NCBI GenBank assembly: GCA_033584155.1
Contig: CP138355.1
Coordinates: 1 to 64,000 of the forward strand
Source: Candidatus Electrothrix scaldis
GTDB lineage: Bacteria > Desulfobacterota > Desulfobulbia > Desulfobulbales > Desulfobulbaceae
Reading direction: 5' to 3'
DNA length: 64,000 bases
A program made the position numbers and the translations under genes. This document shows positions 4,839-58,201 of the stretch, one piece after another; position 1 is the first letter of the stretch, and the number at the start of each line of letters is the position of its first letter. Under the pieces are notes generated by a model. That model searched no databases. It was not told the origin of the DNA and saw only the letters and a list, made by a program, of their open reading frames with translations.

Positions 4839-5206
4839 TTTCGATGGATATGAAGAACCAATTCACAGAACAGGAAAAAGCCTTTTTTAAACTGTATCGA
4901 AACAGTGATTCCATATTAAAAAGAATTTTAATTGGGTTAAGCCTATTATTATTTTTTGGTCTCTTGTTAGATGCTTTAAACGGCTTTATGATTCTAAGAA
5001 ATTCCAAATCTGTTCTTCATGGTATTGTTGGTTTGCTCATACTCACGGTCATATACATCACTGGCGAAGGTTTAACTGGCAAGGTGGCTGCCAAAGATAG
5101 TGTTGATCATCCGTTATATAAAAGGATTTATCATTTATTTTTGCTTCTTCTCGTAACAACTTCGTTTACAGGGGTTTGTTTTTTAGTTTTCAATCTTATG
5201 TGGTAG
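4835..5206 (+). CDS. Hypothetical small membrane protein (cassette-like)
   Basis: Encodes about 123 residues with three predicted membrane helices (about residues 28-50, 60-82 and 97-122) and a charged N terminus. No family recognised. The frame is open back to 4727, but the GTTATG right end of an attC-like sequence overlaps the ATG at 4835, which makes that the natural cassette start. ATGs at 4844 and 4850 are alternatives. A 7-bp perfect hairpin (GGTGCAT-AACC-ATGCACC, 5215-5232) lies just after the stop and may be another degraded recombination site. AT-rich relative to flanking genes, like the previous gene. Confidence 0.55.
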   Translation: MFSMDMKNQFTEQEKAFFKLYRNSDSILKRILIGLSLLLFFGLLLDALNGFMILRNSKSVLHGIVGLLILTVIYITGEGLTGKVAAKDSVDHPLYKRIYHLFLLLLVTTSFTGVCFLVFNLMW

Positions 5207-5375
5207 CCTTATGCGGTGCATAACCATGCACCATTTTCGGTATGGAACCGTACCCTGCCCGGCTGCCGCATTCATCTTGCCCCGCTTTCCCGCATCAGGT
5301 AATATCCTATTAAGTGTTTCAGGGACGTTCTATCAATCTGTTCAGCAATCAGAAAGTTATCAGGGAGAGCACATA

Positions 5376-51364: not shown

Positions 51365-52942
51365 TTACACAGGTGAGTAATCTTCAAAGCCATCCACAGC
51401 AACAGTGTACTCAGGGTCTTCAATGATATCGACCTGAATAAGCTTATCTGCCTTATGGATGAGCTTACGACAATCAGGACTCAGGTGCTGCAAACTGATG
51501 TTTTTGCCAGCCTGCTCATATTTCTGGGCCAATTTATTAATGGCTTCAATTCCGGAATGGTCGGCAACCCGGGATTCCTTAAAATCGATGATGACCTCAT
51601 CAGGGTCGTTTTCCACATCAAACTTACTGTTGAACATCTGGACCGAACCAAAGAAGAGTGGCCCGAATATCTCATAATGTTTGACCCCGTTTTCATCAAT
51701 ACGCTTTCGCGCCCGAATGCGAATGGCATTCTCCCAGGCAAAAACCAAGGCTGAAACAACAACCCCGGCAAGGACAGCAATGGCCAGATCAAAAACCACG
51801 GTTAAGACGGTGACCAGGAGGATAACCAGGGCATCGGACAGAGGAATCTTATCAAGAACCCCAAAGGTGCTCCAGGCAAAGGTTCCAAGAACAACCATAA
51901 ACATCAGGCCAACCAAGGCTGCCACCGGAATCATCCCGATATATGTGGAACCAAAGAGGATAAACATAAGCAGGGATAAGGCTGCCACAATTCCAGATAA
52001 GCGCCCCCGCCCACCGGATTTAATATTAATGATGCTCTGGCCGATCATGGCGCAACCGCCCATGCCACCCAGAAAGCCGTTCACCATATTTGCTACCCCC
52101 TGAGCAATGCTTTCCTTATTGGCATTGCCATGCGTATTGGTCAGTTCATCAATAAGATTCAAGGTCATCAGGGATTCAATCAAACCAACAGAGGCAATAA
52201 TTGCCGCATAAGGAAAGATAAAATAAAGCGTTTCCAGGCTGAAAGGCACAGCCGGAACATGGAACACCGGTAAGCCAGCCTTAATCCCCTCACCACCTTT
52301 TGCCTGGACAAAGGAAAGGACCGTCTCAGTCTCAATTCCGGTAAAAATAACCAGCAAGGCCACCGTAATGATAGCCACCAAGGCGGCTGGCACCTTAGTC
52401 GTGAACTTGGGCAGGAGATAAAGTATAGCCATAGTAAGGCCAACAAGCCCCAACATGGTATAGAGAGGAGTGCCCTGCATCCACGCACCGCCCGCCTTAA
52501 ACATCTCCAGCTGGGCAAGGAAGATAACGATGGCCAGGCCATTGACAAAGCCCATCATAACTGGATGCGGGATCAGGCGAACAAATTTGCCAAAGCGAAA
52601 AATACCAGCCAGCATCTGGAGCACACCAACAAGCAGCAGGGTGACAAAGAGGTATTGCAAGCCAGCGCCCTCCCCTCCCATTTCAGTACCTGTTTTGACT
52701 AAGGAGACCATTACAACGGCGGTGGCACCGGTTGCACCGGAGATCATCCCTGGGCGACCTCCGATCACGGAGGTTACCAGGCCCATCATAAAGGCCCCGT
52801 ACAGCCCAACAATCGGCGATATACCGGCAATAAAGGCAAAGGCGACGGCCTCCGGGACGAGGGCGATAGCGACCGTCAATCCAGAAAGGACATCGTCTTT
52901 TATTGAACCTCTTTTATGCTCTATGAACTTAAATCTCTTCAT
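51365..52942 (-). CDS. SulP-family anion transporter with STAS domain
   Basis: A 525-residue inner-membrane transporter. The N terminus has KDDVLSGLTVAIALVPEAVAFAFIAGISPIVGLYGAFMMG, the SulP signature region. Ten or more helices follow (including GGMGGCAMIGQSIINIKSGGRGRLSGIVAALSLL), ending in a cytoplasmic STAS domain (about 420-525, EVIIDFKESRVADHSGIEAINKL). SulP proteins carry sulphate, bicarbonate or other anions; a sulphur-cycling host would make sulphate or bicarbonate plausible, but the sequence does not decide. Single-gene transcript. Confidence 0.92.
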   Translation of the reverse strand: MKRFKFIEHKRGSIKDDVLSGLTVAIALVPEAVAFAFIAGISPIVGLYGAFMMGLVTSVIGGRPGMISGATGATAVVMVSLVKTGTEMGGEGAGLQYLFVTLLLVGVLQMLAGIFRFGKFVRLIPHPVMMGFVNGLAIVIFLAQLEMFKAGGAWMQGTPLYTMLGLVGLTMAILYLLPKFTTKVPAALVAIITVALLVIFTGIETETVLSFVQAKGGEGIKAGLPVFHVPAVPFSLETLYFIFPYAAIIASVGLIESLMTLNLIDELTNTHGNANKESIAQGVANMVNGFLGGMGGCAMIGQSIINIKSGGRGRLSGIVAALSLLMFILFGSTYIGMIPVAALVGLMFMVVLGTFAWSTFGVLDKIPLSDALVILLVTVLTVVFDLAIAVLAGVVVSALVFAWENAIRIRARKRIDENGVKHYEIFGPLFFGSVQMFNSKFDVENDPDEVIIDFKESRVADHSGIEAINKLAQKYEQAGKNISLQHLSPDCRKLIHKADKLIQVDIIEDPEYTVAVDGFEDYSPV

Positions 52943-53289
52943 CTTTCTTTACATCCATCTCCTTCATGCGTCATATAAGCATAGACCGGCATAAACAAGC
53001 TGAACCACTCCTGTGTTTTGGGTTTTTAAAAATACAAAAATTGTAACATCGGCGTAAAGGGGCTGTTTATAGCATTTATTCGCCCTCAAGGGAATGATTC
53101 TTTTTGGTGATAGGGGGAGATTTCCGGCAAAAGGGGCACAATGGGGGATCTGGGAGTTTTGATCAGAGGAGGGAAAGCAACTGGCTGTTGACAATAAGGT
53201 TTATTCACTGTTACTCTACGGAAAGTAATCTATGTCCCTTCTAACATATAGAACAATAAGCAATTAAACATTTTTCATAGACCACATCA
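52943..53289. other. Divergent intergenic region with promoter motif copy 3
   Basis: A 350-base region between the SulP gene (minus) and the membrane-protein gene (plus). It holds the third copy of the repeated promoter-like motif at 53186-53214 and no gene. The rest shows no further structure. Confidence 0.4.
53186..53214 (+). promoter_or_regulatory. Repeated promoter-like motif, copy 3
   Basis: TGTTGACAATAAGGTTTATT then CACTGTTAC. It matches copies 1 and 2 (36064-36093, 36821-36849) at about 23 of 29 positions, including TTGACAAT and CTGTTAC. About 75 bases before the ATG at 53290. Confidence 0.6.
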
Positions 53290-53748
53290 ATGCTCAACAT
53301 ACTCTTATTCCTCAGCGCCTTTATCGTTCTAGTCTCCGGTTTTGTTATCTTTTATGGTTATACTTACAGAAAATGGGCATCAAAGCAGTCCATTATTGGC
53401 ACATGGAAGTTTACAGGACAAGATTTTTCAGTGACTTATCAGTTCGTTGAGGAAAATAAAGACGGTGGATTATTTTACAGATTACACGAAGGTAAAGAAA
53501 ATCGATTTCGAGTCTTTGGCAGATGGCTATTACAGGACTATAGTAATTTAAAATTATTACCATTATCTTCTGAACTACCAGAGCGATTCATAATAGGTGA
53601 GGAGCACCCAGCTAAATTACACTTCATTATCGACCAAGAGAATAAAATAACCATTTCTGAAGGAAATCAAAACTTTAACATGGAAAAAATTGAGAGAGAT
53701 ATAAAAGAGGAGTTTGATTCTCCAGCTAAGAAAGAAATGAATAACTAA
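53290..53748 (+). CDS. Membrane-anchored hypothetical protein
   Basis: A 152-residue protein with one N-terminal membrane helix (LLFLSAFIVLVSGFVIFYGYT) and a lipocalin-like soluble domain: GTWKFTGQDFSVTYQFVEE, RFRVFGRWLLQDYSNLKLLPL and KLHFIIDQENKITI strands. The pattern looks like the 'GTW' lipocalin-related family that binds small hydrophobic molecules, but the match is weak. It follows copy 3 of the repeated promoter-like motif, making it the third short gene with this upstream sequence. Low GC. Confidence 0.55.
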   Translation: MLNILLFLSAFIVLVSGFVIFYGYTYRKWASKQSIIGTWKFTGQDFSVTYQFVEENKDGGLFYRLHEGKENRFRVFGRWLLQDYSNLKLLPLSSELPERFIIGEEHPAKLHFIIDQENKITISEGNQNFNMEKIERDIKEEFDSPAKKEMNN

Positions 53749-53842
53749 ATGCAACATCATTCGTTTTTTATTTACTGGACGCGCGACAAAAATAAAATTA
53801 ATTTAATAATATTAAATCATTCTCCATCCCTCCCCTTCTTAA

Positions 53843-54868
53843 TTACCCTATCCCCTTCCTTGCCTCAACAGGCGTCTTCCCGGACCAACGCTTAAAGGCC
53901 TTTCGGAAGCCCCGGTCACTCTCAAAACCCAGCCGAAAGGATACCTCATCAATACTGAGGCTCTTATCCGCCAGCATCCCCATTGCATTCACATAGCGCA
54001 CCTCCCCCAACAGATTCGCTGGCGTAACCCCCTCCGGCATACGCCGCCGTAAGGTGCAGGTGCTCATCCCCATACTCCGGGCCAAACCATCCACTGAATA
54101 ATCCCCCTTCATCGCATTACACATGGCTACCCGGCGGATATCCGCAAGACCATCGGCCCGGTCCAAACCGAGCTCCTGGCGAAGGCGTTGCAGCCGCTGC
54201 TCCAGCGACGAACGCATCTCCTGCCCCCCTCTCTTATTGGAGCGCTTCTTCAGTTCCTGGCTACTGAACACCAGCGCATTAAATTCCGCCCCAAAACTCA
54301 CAGGCACACCGAAAAATTCCCTATAGGTGGCAACTGGCCCACGAGCCCTATGGCGGAACTGAACCCGAGTCAATAAGCCCTCACCAAAACATTCCCGAGT
54401 GATTCGCGCCCCGATACCGAGCCCGATTTCTGCACTCATTCCCTGATCCACATCGCTCAGGGGTTGGCGGGTACGAAAAAAGGTCTCTTGCGAACCGGAA
54501 ATAGCCCTGATCTCAAGGCGATCAGCAAAGAGATCGCAATGATTGACAAAAATATCCAGCATGCTCTGTGCATCAGGCGCACGTAGAAAGAGCTGTCCTG
54601 GCGTACCGAAATAGGACATCGGGGCAACCCGCGCCAATTCCAGCGCCACGTTCCGTTCCGGGAACTTTCTGATCAGCATCTGGAAAAATTTTTCAAAAAA
54701 TTCTTCCGGCAGGTAATTTTCAGGATCAATAAGTCGACCGGGGTCGATATTTGTTTCCTTACTAATGTATTCGACAGACAAACCAAGATACGCAGCAAAA
54801 AAAACAGTAACGGTCCCCATACTGCTGAGGATGCGGTATTCCTGAGGTATTTCACGGGGAGACGGCAT
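53843..54868 (-). CDS. AraC-family transcriptional regulator
   Basis: A 341-residue regulator. The N-terminal ~200 residues match the arabinose-binding-like sensor domain found in OruR/ArgR-type AraC proteins (ALELARVAPMSYFGTPGQLFLRAPDAQSMLDIF). The C-terminal ~100 residues form the AraC double helix-turn-helix, with DGLARSMGMSTCTLRRRMPEG and MLADKSLSIDEVSFRLGFESDRGFRKAFKRWSGKTPVEARK. The last part is the canonical second HTH with GF-x-S-x-x-x-F-R-R-AFKRW. No adjacent operon on its strand; the target is unknown. Confidence 0.92.
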   Translation of the reverse strand: MPSPREIPQEYRILSSMGTVTVFFAAYLGLSVEYISKETNIDPGRLIDPENYLPEEFFEKFFQMLIRKFPERNVALELARVAPMSYFGTPGQLFLRAPDAQSMLDIFVNHCDLFADRLEIRAISGSQETFFRTRQPLSDVDQGMSAEIGLGIGARITRECFGEGLLTRVQFRHRARGPVATYREFFGVPVSFGAEFNALVFSSQELKKRSNKRGGQEMRSSLEQRLQRLRQELGLDRADGLADIRRVAMCNAMKGDYSVDGLARSMGMSTCTLRRRMPEGVTPANLLGEVRYVNAMGMLADKSLSIDEVSFRLGFESDRGFRKAFKRWSGKTPVEARKGIG

Positions 54869-55154
54869 ACATTTTCCCTCACAAATAATCTGATATCTCT
54901 CTCCTTCTTCCCTTGACGAGAAAGTTCCGCTTTTTGCAGCTTCAGATCATAGAAAATGACCACAAAATCACGTAATCTTTAAATATAGAGAGAAGAAAGA
55001 ACAAATTAATCAAGACGACTTCCGGGATATTTTTCCAGCAAAAGGAAAAGAACGGCCCGAAAAAATAACAAGACAATACGTCATTATACCAGACAGTTTT
55101 TCAATTGATGATCTGAAAATTTCATCAGGAAAAACAAAACAGGGAGGATACGCT

Positions 55155-55295
55155 ATGATTTCCCGAGATGCTGTACGAATATTAATGCTTAGCCCACTCT
55201 ATTTCCATCTTAATGCCCGGCAACGCCTCAACCTTGTAAGAGAATACAGCCTGGCTATGAATAGTTTTTCTCTGACCACAGAAAAAAAAACATGA
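55155..55295 (+). CDS. Conserved-looking 46-residue small protein
   Basis: A small ORF, MISRDAVRILMLSPLYFHLN then ARQRLNLVREYSLAMNSFSLTTEKKT. AGGGAGG lies seven bases before the ATG, a strong ribosome binding site. The amphipathic N-terminal half, RILMLSPLYF, resembles small conserved proteins I recall in anaerobic Deltaproteobacteria near radical-SAM-type genes; no database check is possible here. It lies about 95 bases before the radical-SAM-like/CAP fusion gene on the same strand and could be a precursor peptide or partner of it. Confidence 0.6.
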   Translation: MISRDAVRILMLSPLYFHLNARQRLNLVREYSLAMNSFSLTTEKKT

Positions 55296-55389
55296 CCATA
55301 AGACATTAATTTTTCCCCATGAGGACATGGACGAAGGAAAAAATTAAACAACGCTTTCATAGATGAGCAAGTAAAAAAAGGAGGTCACT

Positions 55390-56601
55390 ATGAATTCAAG
55401 CCCTGAAATATCCCTTATTGACCTATTCCTGACATTGCCCTGTACATGCACAAACAGTACACTGGAGGTAAACAGTAATCCGCGCAGGATGTCTCCCCGC
55501 ACCCTGGACCGGGCCATTGACTGGATTGCCGGACATGCCACACAGAATGTACAGCTTGTTTTTCGGGGCAGCGAGGATCCTTCTCTGACCCTGGACCTGA
55601 TAGAACGAGCAGCCTCCCGCTGCCAAAAATGGGAGATCTGTCATCCGGTACATTTCACGCTCACTCTCGTCATCCATTCCCTGGACCTTGACGAGCAACT
55701 TGCCGCCCAACTTGCGGCCTGGAATGTGGAATATCTGTTTTCCTGTGATGAATATGACTCAAGTCACCAGAGGACACGGGACGACAAACGCATTGATAAC
55801 CTGGTTGATGTTATGGACAGTCACATTATGCAGACTCGGCTTTCTATCAATCCAGAAGGAAAGGTATTTACCTGCCCGCCCATGACCTTCCTGCCCAAAC
55901 AGGACAGGCTTTTGCTCGGTGAACTCGGCGATGTATTCAAGTGGGATGATATTGAGAAGAACCTAAAGACTTTTCAAGAGGAACTGGAGGAGGAACTACA
56001 GGAGGGGAAAAATAAGGAAGAGGCAACAAGCTGCCAACATTTGAGAAAAAAATCTCCCCTGGCTATGGGGGCAATCGGAGTGCTCTGCGTTCTGTTGTCT
56101 TTACCGCTGTCTTTACCGATAAGCACGACAGTGGCTGAAGTAAGGCCCCATGGCGTCGACTCTGTTGCCATGACGATCGCTCATAATCAATGGCGCGTGC
56201 AGGTTGATGCCCCTGCCCTGATCTGGTCTGACACCTTGGCAACCAGTGCCCTGAATTGGTCCGAACAGCTGGCAGCAGATGGTTGCCTGATGAAACACAG
56301 CACCGGCGGCAGCTATGGAGAAAATATCTATTGGGCAAGCCCTCTGTCCTTCTCTGATGGAACAAGGATCGTGCAGGGAATAAAGGACCAGGATGTGGTT
56401 GACGCCTGGGGAAGTGAGATCACCTTTTACGACTATGCATCAAACAGCTGCAAGGGCGGCGTCTGCGGCCATTACACCCAAATGGTTTGGAAGGACACGC
56501 GAGAGGTGGGTTGCGGAATGACAGTGTGCGGCGACCAGGAACAGATCTGGGTCTGCCAGTATTCCCCTGCCGGAAATATGATGGGGCAAAGGCCGTATTA
56601 A
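55390..56601 (+). CDS. Degenerate radical-SAM/SPASM-like region fused via membrane helix to CAP domain
   Basis: A 403-residue, three-part protein. Residues 1-185 follow radical-SAM order: LFLTLPCTCTNSTLEVN in the place of the Fe-S motif, MSPRTLDRAIDWI, VQLVFRGSEDPSL in place of the GGEP loop, YLFSCDEYDSSHQRTRDD like the SxDG segment, and RLSINPEGKVFTCPPM like a SPASM strand. The C-x3-C-x2-C cluster is missing, so catalysis by the usual mechanism is unlikely. A membrane helix at about 226-246 leads to an extracytoplasmic CAP/SCP domain with H303, GENIYWAS, and GHYTQMVWKDTREVGCG. AAGGAGGTCAC precedes the ATG. This combination is new to me. The CAP domain may bind sterol-like ligands or the cell wall. 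Confidence 0.8.
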   Translation: MNSSPEISLIDLFLTLPCTCTNSTLEVNSNPRRMSPRTLDRAIDWIAGHATQNVQLVFRGSEDPSLTLDLIERAASRCQKWEICHPVHFTLTLVIHSLDLDEQLAAQLAAWNVEYLFSCDEYDSSHQRTRDDKRIDNLVDVMDSHIMQTRLSINPEGKVFTCPPMTFLPKQDRLLLGELGDVFKWDDIEKNLKTFQEELEEELQEGKNKEEATSCQHLRKKSPLAMGAIGVLCVLLSLPLSLPISTTVAEVRPHGVDSVAMTIAHNQWRVQVDAPALIWSDTLATSALNWSEQLAADGCLMKHSTGGSYGENIYWASPLSFSDGTRIVQGIKDQDVVDAWGSEITFYDYASNSCKGGVCGHYTQMVWKDTREVGCGMTVCGDQEQIWVCQYSPAGNMMGQRPY

Positions 56602-56638
56602 ATTCGGGAAGGAAGACAAGGACACTTTTTCACGAAGC

Positions 56639-58048
56639 TCAGAAATATATCCCTTTGACTCCCTCCTCCTGCTCTTCATGATAACCGGCCAAAATGCGCT
56701 TAGCCATTTCCCAGGCCTGTTTATGCATATCATTAATCCCGATCCCCTGCCAGCCAAAGCCACAGAGATGCAAATTTTTATGCGTGTCCAGCACCTGCCG
56801 CCGCCAGTCCAGCAGCGCAGGATATCCCTCTTCTAATTGGGGAATACCATAGTTAGGACGCAGGACCCGACTGAATACCGGTGGCTCAGGCAGATCCATA
56901 AGCTGCTTCAGATCCTCATAGACCTTTTCCACCAATTCCTCATCGCTCAAGTCAAGCCGCTCAGGATGCCTGCGCCCGCCAACCAGGGCCTCCATAAGGG
57001 CATGCCCTTCAGGTGCCCTTCCTGGAAACATATGTGAAGAAAATAAGGCTCCCAGGGCAAAACGATGTTCTTGCTCCGGGGCAAGATAGCCAAAGCCAAA
57101 GGGGATATCGGCCTTATCGGTAAAACCAAGGGCTACAGTGGCGATTCGAGCCTCAGGAATCTGGGCACAAGGAGGAGCAGGGAGCTCGCTCCCTTCAAGC
57201 AACTTCAAGCAGCTATTCACCGGCAGGGCAATAATCAGGTGACGAGCATGCAACTCCAGCTGGCCGGTTCTTACCAACCAGCCCTTATCGACCTGGACTA
57301 TAGAACGGGCTGCGGTCCGATACATAATTTCCTGATTAGGAATCAGCTTGGCAGCCATTGCCTGTGGCAGACGCGCCATTCCCGCCTTAAAGCTGGTCAT
57401 GGAAGGCAGTCCTTTTTTCTTCCCACTCTCTTTGCCACGTTCCTTACGGGCTGCCCACAGCTTCCGCACCGCCCCTTTCAACACCGAGCCGTGCGCCTGC
57501 TCTAAATTATGCAGACCAGGCATAACCGCTTCCAGCTTCAGCCGTTCAATATCACCGGCATAGGTCCCGGTAAAAACAGCATCGGCAAAAGGCAGCAAGG
57601 ATTTACCAAAACGATGCTCCATCCATTGCGCCACCGTAGGTTCATCCGTAAGAGGCCTTTTCCAGAGATCAGCAAGAACCCGGAGCTTGGCCGTCCAGGG
57701 CACCAGAGGCGCCTTAAGAATTTTTCCTGGACTCTGGGGAATGAGCTGCAGTTTTCCATCCAGACAGATATAACGAACAAACTCCGATAAAGGGGCCTTC
57801 TCAACCTCCTCAACCAGACCGGCCTCATGGACGAGGACCCGGCTTTCCAGGGCATTGTCGAGGAATCCATGTGCCCCGCCCTCAGCAAGATAGCCCTCCT
57901 CAATATGCGATCGGACAGCACCTCCGGGATGATCTCCCTGTTCGATAATCAGTAAAGAGATATTCGGCTCTTTATGTTTCAGAAAGGTAGCAGCTGCCAG
58001 CCCGGACAGACCGGCACCGATAATTAAGACATCAGCAGATGATTGCAT
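56639..58048 (-). CDS. hemG: Protoporphyrinogen oxidase (HemY type)
   Basis: A 469-residue FAD flavoprotein that oxidises protoporphyrinogen IX to protoporphyrin IX in haem synthesis. The N terminus has the dinucleotide-binding VLIIGAGLSGLAAATFL and IIEQGDHPGGAVRS. The C terminus has HLCGFGWQGIGINDMHKQA with the FAD-binding GxGI element. The family-typical central block (MTSFKAGMARLPQAMAAKL) is present. Oxygen-dependent-type enzyme, though anaerobes can use other acceptors. Stands alone on the minus strand, convergent with the CAP-fusion gene. Confidence 0.92.
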   Translation of the reverse strand: MQSSADVLIIGAGLSGLAAATFLKHKEPNISLLIIEQGDHPGGAVRSHIEEGYLAEGGAHGFLDNALESRVLVHEAGLVEEVEKAPLSEFVRYICLDGKLQLIPQSPGKILKAPLVPWTAKLRVLADLWKRPLTDEPTVAQWMEHRFGKSLLPFADAVFTGTYAGDIERLKLEAVMPGLHNLEQAHGSVLKGAVRKLWAARKERGKESGKKKGLPSMTSFKAGMARLPQAMAAKLIPNQEIMYRTAARSIVQVDKGWLVRTGQLELHARHLIIALPVNSCLKLLEGSELPAPPCAQIPEARIATVALGFTDKADIPFGFGYLAPEQEHRFALGALFSSHMFPGRAPEGHALMEALVGGRRHPERLDLSDEELVEKVYEDLKQLMDLPEPPVFSRVLRPNYGIPQLEEGYPALLDWRRQVLDTHKNLHLCGFGWQGIGINDMHKQAWEMAKRILAGYHEEQEEGVKGIYF

Positions 58049-58201
58049 AATGATGGACCATAAAGCTATTCTTGCTCGTGATTCATATATTCACGATAAT
58101 ATTGACACGGATGATATGCAGGACAAGATCAAAACATTATACCAGGGTCTATGAAAGGTCAAGGAGGAACCTGAAACAGCTCAGGAGTCCAGAGACAATA
58201 T

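Follow-up and report, generated by a model that had tools for sequence, protein, structure and literature searches.

Two kinds of described protein stand closest to the locus reported here. One is that of the radical SAM/SPASM maturases, with PapB (NCBIfam NF047865) and the solved enzyme 5wgg, which we take to be CteB; the other is that of the CAP/SCP-PR1 proteins (PF00188), whose superfamily has the cavity residues His/Glu/Glu/His. At this locus a single gene for 403 residues combines a decayed part of the former with a complete domain of the latter, and a small gene for a 46-residue protein lies just upstream. In the literature searched, no paper linked Electrothrix with radical SAM or cable bacteria with a CAP domain, and the motif strings of the small protein were absent; the papers on inactive radical SAM proteins and on CAP/radical SAM fusions held nothing on the subject in their titles and the openings of their abstracts.

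Gene content at the hemG 3' end

The window (the whole stretch of DNA analysed, 64,000 nucleotides) lies in the genome of Ca. Electrothrix scaldis, which, like Ca. E. aarhusensis, is a cable bacterium. The window genome (G000), assembled as one contig, has 5,089,909 bases; strain GW3-3 of Ca. E. scaldis is described as having a closed genome of 5 089 909 bp (PMC10926707). Two other genomes recur below, namely that of a sister species (G005) and that of Ca. Electrothrix aarhusensis MCF (G004), of the same genus. The locus has the following features.

53843-54868, minus strand: gene for a divergent AraC-type regulator (Arabinose_bd and HTH_18 in Pfam), linked in the three island genomes
55141-55147, plus strand: strong Shine-Dalgarno sequence AGGGAGG of the microprotein gene, read in the sequence
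55155-55295, plus strand: small ORF for the 46-residue microprotein, of a family spread over the Desulfobacterota (in 71 of 96 related genomes and 32 of 297 from the phylum)
55380-55384, plus strand: strong Shine-Dalgarno sequence GGAGG of the fusion gene, read in the sequence
55390-56601, plus strand: ORF of the fusion gene, 403 residues, with a 95% identical fusion in the sister genome
55390-55992, plus strand: radical SAM/SPASM remnant, residues 1-201, from the alignment to the intact enzyme
55660-55803, plus strand: hypervariable patch, residues 91-138, from the comparison of the window genome with the sister genome
56065-56136, plus strand: hydrophobic, signal-peptide-like segment, residues 226-249, read in the sequence; stand-alone CAP paralogues begin likewise
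56179-56562, plus strand: CAP domain (PF00188), residues 264-391, from Pfam and a PDB alignment
56639-58048, minus strand: hemG-like gene, the syntenic anchor, with the island at its 3' end

The original prediction had proposed a two-gene system, made up of a small protein and a fusion of a radical-SAM/SPASM-like region, a single membrane helix and an extracytoplasmic CAP domain. Both ORFs, each with a strong Shine-Dalgarno sequence before it, are where they had been placed, and the order of radical SAM/SPASM part, hydrophobic segment and CAP domain holds. The stretch AAAAAAAGGAGGTCACTATG, at the Shine-Dalgarno sequence of the fusion gene, recurs in E. aarhusensis, where the intact radical SAM gene follows it. 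Promoter-like and terminator-like sites occur at chance level and none delimits a transcription unit at the locus; the gap between the small ORF and the fusion gene (55296-55389) yielded no terminator-like site. The gene at 56639-58048 is called hemG-like here from the look of its sequence.

The radical SAM gene, the adjoining small ORF and the AraC gene co-occur in the window genome, the sister genome and E. aarhusensis. Four other genomes (G001, G002, G003 and G007) have hemG with no radical SAM gene, small ORF or AraC gene in the stretches read, and G006 gave no hemG match. The AraC gene of G003 is located elsewhere, about 41 kb from hemG, and the small ORF was not seen beside it. Just behind AraC, the final 65-70 bases of hemG are found a second time in E. 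aarhusensis (L066:5499-5568), and in G003 two copies of the hemG tail flank AraC and its neighbour (L129:2877-3046 and 5135-5271; the window tail is at 56639-56812). These duplicated tails around AraC cassettes suggest that cassettes enter at the hemG 3' end, and the hemG tail may be a hot spot of insertion. At the window island no such repeat of the hemG tail was found, and the surrounding region (52900-58100) has no direct or inverted repeats of at least 20 bases.

Radical SAM ancestry of the N-terminal part

At the same site, between the hemG-like and AraC genes, Ca. E. aarhusensis has a relative of the 46-residue ORF, an intact radical SAM enzyme of 348 residues and a 225-residue ORF, in this order. 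The enzyme, which is encoded on MTKO01000034.1, has the cluster motif CNCKCSYC, a GGE motif and a SPASM end; it matches PF04055 in Pfam (E = 9.3e-15) and, among PDB sequences, the solved relative 5wgg (E = 5.3e-24), and its best NCBIfam model is PapB (193.8 bits, under the cut-off of 340). The window protein is homologous to it (42% identity over 211 columns, E = 2e-46, with a second match over the start of SPASM), which establishes the radical SAM ancestry of its N-terminal part. Residues 1-146 of the window protein pair with residues 1-146 of the intact enzyme, and 149-201 with about 247-299; since these two parts map about 100 residues apart, the N-terminal 201 residues are what is left of a radical SAM/SPASM protein after an internal deletion, in which about 100 middle (barrel) residues were lost. 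As for the catalytic motifs, the C-x3-C-x2-C cluster is represented only by C18, the other positions being N22 and L25; GGE has been lost (GSE, with GGEPT changed to GSEDPS); and of the SPASM C-terminal cysteine clusters, which the intact gene has as CIDCNLREKCIGGC, none is left, the window protein keeping only the part that precedes them.

Both the missing cluster and a catalytically dead radical SAM protein had been predicted, and the comparison with the intact syntenic enzyme bears them out. The proposed radical SAM/SPASM region stands as a matter of ancestry by homology, but only a fragment of SPASM is left and Pfam sees none of it: neither the whole window protein nor its first 224 residues matched PF04055 at E <= 10. 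NCBIfam gave weak matches of the window protein to PapB (2.3e-6), HxsB (3.2e-6) and CcpM (9e-4), and the remnant itself had no match among PDB sequences at E <= 1. The AF2 model of the fusion, made with two sequences as input, is poor (mean pLDDT 39.6); strands and helices alternate in it only over residues 36-117.

In its intact or its decayed form, this radical SAM gene was found in three of the 96 relatives, namely the window genome, the sister genome and E. aarhusensis (E <= 1e-25), and among 395 genomes of the phylum only in the window genome (E <= 1e-28, with up to five candidates scored per genome). A scan of contigs for close relatives, which may omit the window's own and near genomes, gave the enzyme only in E. 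aarhusensis. In what was searched the enzyme is confined to the genus Electrothrix, and it looks as though it may be an acquired accessory gene. Between E. scaldis and E. aarhusensis the amino acid identity is 56% for the remnant (first 146 residues), 86% for hemG and 79% for AraC. In E. scaldis and the sister species an in-frame CAP sequence replaces the 3' end of the enzyme gene and the next gene of E. aarhusensis; because a related species has the intact homologue at this very site, the change is traceable and testable. The 225-residue ORF, which immediately follows the intact radical SAM gene (L066:2145-2822, minus strand), has no homologue in any of the 56 other genomes searched (57 in all), and is absent from the window genome.

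Between the window genome and the sister genome, replacement changes number 20 and silent ones 18 over the whole remnant (dN/dS = 0.31), a ratio about five times those of its neighbours hemG (0.061) and AraC (0.055). The patch at residues 91-138 holds 28 of these 38 changes, with a pS of 0.34 against 0.07 elsewhere in the remnant, and contains two 1-nt indels that cancel each other's effect on the frame. Compared with hemG, the ratio of the remnant differs when the patch is included (Fisher p = 0.003), and shows no significant difference without it (p = 0.39). Outside the patch there are three replacement and seven silent changes (p = 0.0018 for dN/dS < 1), a test on 10 changes from two genomes with the patch removed by eye. 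As the remnant looks conserved outside the patch, it is probably a retained part of the protein and not junk, and it is probably kept there under purifying selection, although the evidence is modest and the numbers are small. On the DNA level the patch (55660-55803) is a tract of 150 bp with about 20% divergence, within an otherwise almost identical stretch of 1.8 kb; it looks like the outcome of recombination with a divergent copy, or of rapid evolution.

The same figures bear on a different view of the gene, according to which it is a transitional pseudogene: residues 1-201 would be a functionless leader, translated and in frame only for the sake of CAP synthesis, or translation would begin inside the gene and yield a CAP protein with a signal peptide of its own. 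The loss of the catalytic motifs, the high dN/dS of the whole remnant and the mutual compensation of the two indels fit this view, as do an in-frame TTG at residue 218 and an in-frame ATG at residue 226, where the hydrophobic segment begins. However, the low ratio of replacement to silent changes outside the patch argues against it, and so does the strong Shine-Dalgarno sequence at residue 1, no clear one being visible before residue 218 or 226. We regard a transitional pseudogene as rather unlikely, but as an explanation to be taken seriously.

The CAP part and its export segment

Pfam recognizes only CAP in the window protein (PF00188, residues 264-391, E = 3.3e-21, 76.8 bits against a cut-off of 21.1). 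The domain is complete, its nearest PDB relatives are PR-1 (9lyt) and Pry1 (5ete), and its H, E, E and H align with PR-1 chain 9lyt. By sequence comparison no source was found for the CAP part, the closest paralogue, which is in the same genome, being 64% identical. Apart from the fusions, the displayed CAP ORFs of the order are short, with N-termini that read by eye like those of secreted proteins (signal peptide) or lipoproteins; the display covers 32 of 33 loci, including the two fusions (L041 had no motif ORF, and L060 and one ORF of L044 are incomplete).

The hydrophobic segment, RKKSPLAMGAIGVLCVLLSLPLSLPISTTVA (about residues 226-245), has RKK before it and TTVA after it. Because it resembles the signal peptides of the CAP paralogues, the 'membrane helix' of the original prediction is probably the CAP gene's own putative export signal. 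A hydrophobic segment does exist at that place, but judged by eye and against the paralogues it looks like a type I signal peptide, which corrects the description as a single membrane helix.

The fusion exists in only two of the 96 genomes, the window genome and its sister. An artefact of assembly or annotation could produce so narrow a distribution, but the sister genome has the same fusion on one contig, with a 95% identical protein and a length that differs by 12 bases without a change of frame, and an artefact is therefore scarcely credible. A second fusion seemed to be present in G078 (residues 168-403, in a 412-residue frame with a TGA); it proved to be an independent CAP gene that has a start of its own, and the ORF preceding it is unrelated to the remnant. 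A candidate for the junction at 56038, where 14 of 15 bases match the end of the intact enzyme gene, was also rejected, since 19 of 200 shuffles reach its score; at the protein level it is worse still (631 of 1000 shuffles).

Over residues 202-403 the two genomes differ by two silent and two replacement changes in 199 codons (131 silent sites), and this very low silent divergence would allow a recent exchange of the CAP-side part. The stretch 54751-55350, over half of which is non-coding, has one difference in 600 bases, and the flanking genes differ by about 9% at silent sites. For both stretches, either recent exchange or strong constraint is possible.

The reading that we favour, and consider somewhat probable, is that of a chimeric CAP protein, exported or anchored, with a non-catalytic cytoplasmic N-terminus, encoded beside the hemG 3' end. 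In the two fusion genomes the radical SAM/SPASM peptide-maturase-like gene of the island is reduced to a remnant, with loss of two cluster cysteines, GGE and about 100 barrel residues, and a CAP gene stands in frame in place of its 3' end. The working end of the protein would be the CAP domain, which would cross the inner membrane by means of its own signal-peptide-like segment and either stay anchored or be cut after about residue 249. The remnant would remain in the cytoplasm, with no cluster binding and no SAM chemistry, and may be held as an N-terminal domain by purifying selection outside the patch, perhaps as an anchor or a binding platform. The microprotein would act on its own and may share the transcript.

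The microprotein family and comparison with known systems

The small ORF had been predicted to be real, and judged from its conservation it is a genuine gene; the microprotein family to which it belongs is an independent one. Relatives were found in 71 of 96 related genomes (E <= 0.01) and in 32 of 297 genomes of the phylum, 25 of them outside the order (E <= 0.001), the own genome being included in both counts. The window genome has four family places, one of them with an internal TAA stop. The consensus is MxxRxAIRILMLSPIYFRLxxxQRLxLVREYC, and most of the aligned rows have an SD-like stretch upstream. In alignment A1 ten positions are invariant over 20 members, a number that leans on the motif-based selection of the rows (20 of 29, nine near-duplicates being omitted, and four of 33 loci giving no row). 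Members of about 40-50 residues include the window ORF (55155-55295) and those at L005, L012, L094, L100 and L101; the sequence of the family is conserved and its gene neighbourhood is not.

In its AF2 model (mean pLDDT 77.8, pTM 0.48) the microprotein forms two helices with a short turn helix between them. Against PDB structures the best Foldseek E-value (3.9) and the best VIA Z (3.7) were not meaningful, and the best match to PDB sequences had an E-value of 0.41. Pfam and PHROGs gave no match, and NCBIfam one match at chance level (E = 0.14). An origin from a phage or plasmid was rejected, as plasmids and phages had no match at E <= 0.01; among viral contigs 23 stretches matched the pattern and none encoded a microprotein relative. 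A likeness to the first helices of cyclic-nucleotide-binding domains was supported by no search.

The genes around the family differ from place to place: a TPP enzyme and a glycosyltransferase within the genus, and also NadA, SelB and adenylate kinase. PilZ genes adjoin or lie near members in two lineages (L022:1666-2028 and L101:317-748), and a third match is under the Pfam cut-off. The neighbours were scanned at 73 loci, made up of 63 from the window genome, the relatives and the phylum (some places twice) and 10 others, including the CAP locus L068; flanks were mostly 1.5 kb, and contig ends cut L024, L028, L031, L032 and L110 among others. The enzyme stands beside the microprotein only at the orthologous site of the window genome, the sister genome and E. 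aarhusensis, the scan being one that misses more distant pairings and radical SAM genes without C-x3-C-x2-C; elsewhere there was one match at E = 0.045 (L099). Frames of at least 100 residues with C-x3-C-x2-C occur at four loci, two of which (L009 and L066) are the E. aarhusensis enzyme, while those at L013 and L122 do not match it.

The original prediction has the 46-residue protein, or another peptide, bound in the cytoplasm by the dead maturase domain, with display or sensing outside through CAP. We consider this improbable, and are just as doubtful of an AraC-controlled pair in which a non-catalytic cytoplasmic binding domain on a membrane-anchored CAP protein, with the microprotein or another peptide as ligand, forms an inside-to-outside sensor or display. 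In favour of such a system, the small ORF lies directly upstream on the same strand in all three genomes with the radical SAM gene, so the fusions do neighbour it and the prediction does not fall on that point; the gap between the two genes has no terminator-like site, and the small protein is identical in the window and sister genomes, with one silent change. On the other hand, the family stands without the enzyme at the other scanned loci and is present in many genomes in which the enzyme was not found. Within the flanks scanned, mostly of 1.5 kb, the microprotein is paired with a maturase only at this one site, and a two-gene system is left unsupported.

The idea of the small protein as the peptide of the maturase fares no better. 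At the radical SAM locus the copies read REYS, with Ser at a position that is Cys (REYC) in 17 of the 20 A1 rows. The window copy lacks any cysteine on which thioether chemistry could act, and in the E. aarhusensis copy the only one is at position 5. Moreover, the E. aarhusensis copy ends early, at 32 residues with TAG, although its maturase is intact. A thioether RiPP precursor was accordingly rejected, given a window copy without cysteine and a family independent of this enzyme.

The locus thus holds a radical SAM enzyme stripped of its chemistry, part of whose sequence is seemingly still under selection, and it brings out an uncharacterized microprotein family across the Desulfobacterota that is unnamed in the libraries used. 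Copies at this locus share the family core MxxRxAIRILMLSPIYFRLxxxQRLxLVREY, and differ from most A1 rows by REYS and from the family elsewhere by the adjoining radical SAM gene. In comparison with the PapB-like and 5wgg maturases, residues 1-201 of the window protein descend from such an enzyme, but two cluster cysteines, GGE, the middle of the barrel and the SPASM end have been lost; even the intact homologue of E. aarhusensis is under the 340-bit cut-off for PapB. With the CAP/SCP-PR1 proteins the window protein shares a complete CAP domain. The other displayed CAP ORFs of the order are short and of the secreted type, whereas in the window protein about 225 residues of remnant and linker precede the signal-like segment.
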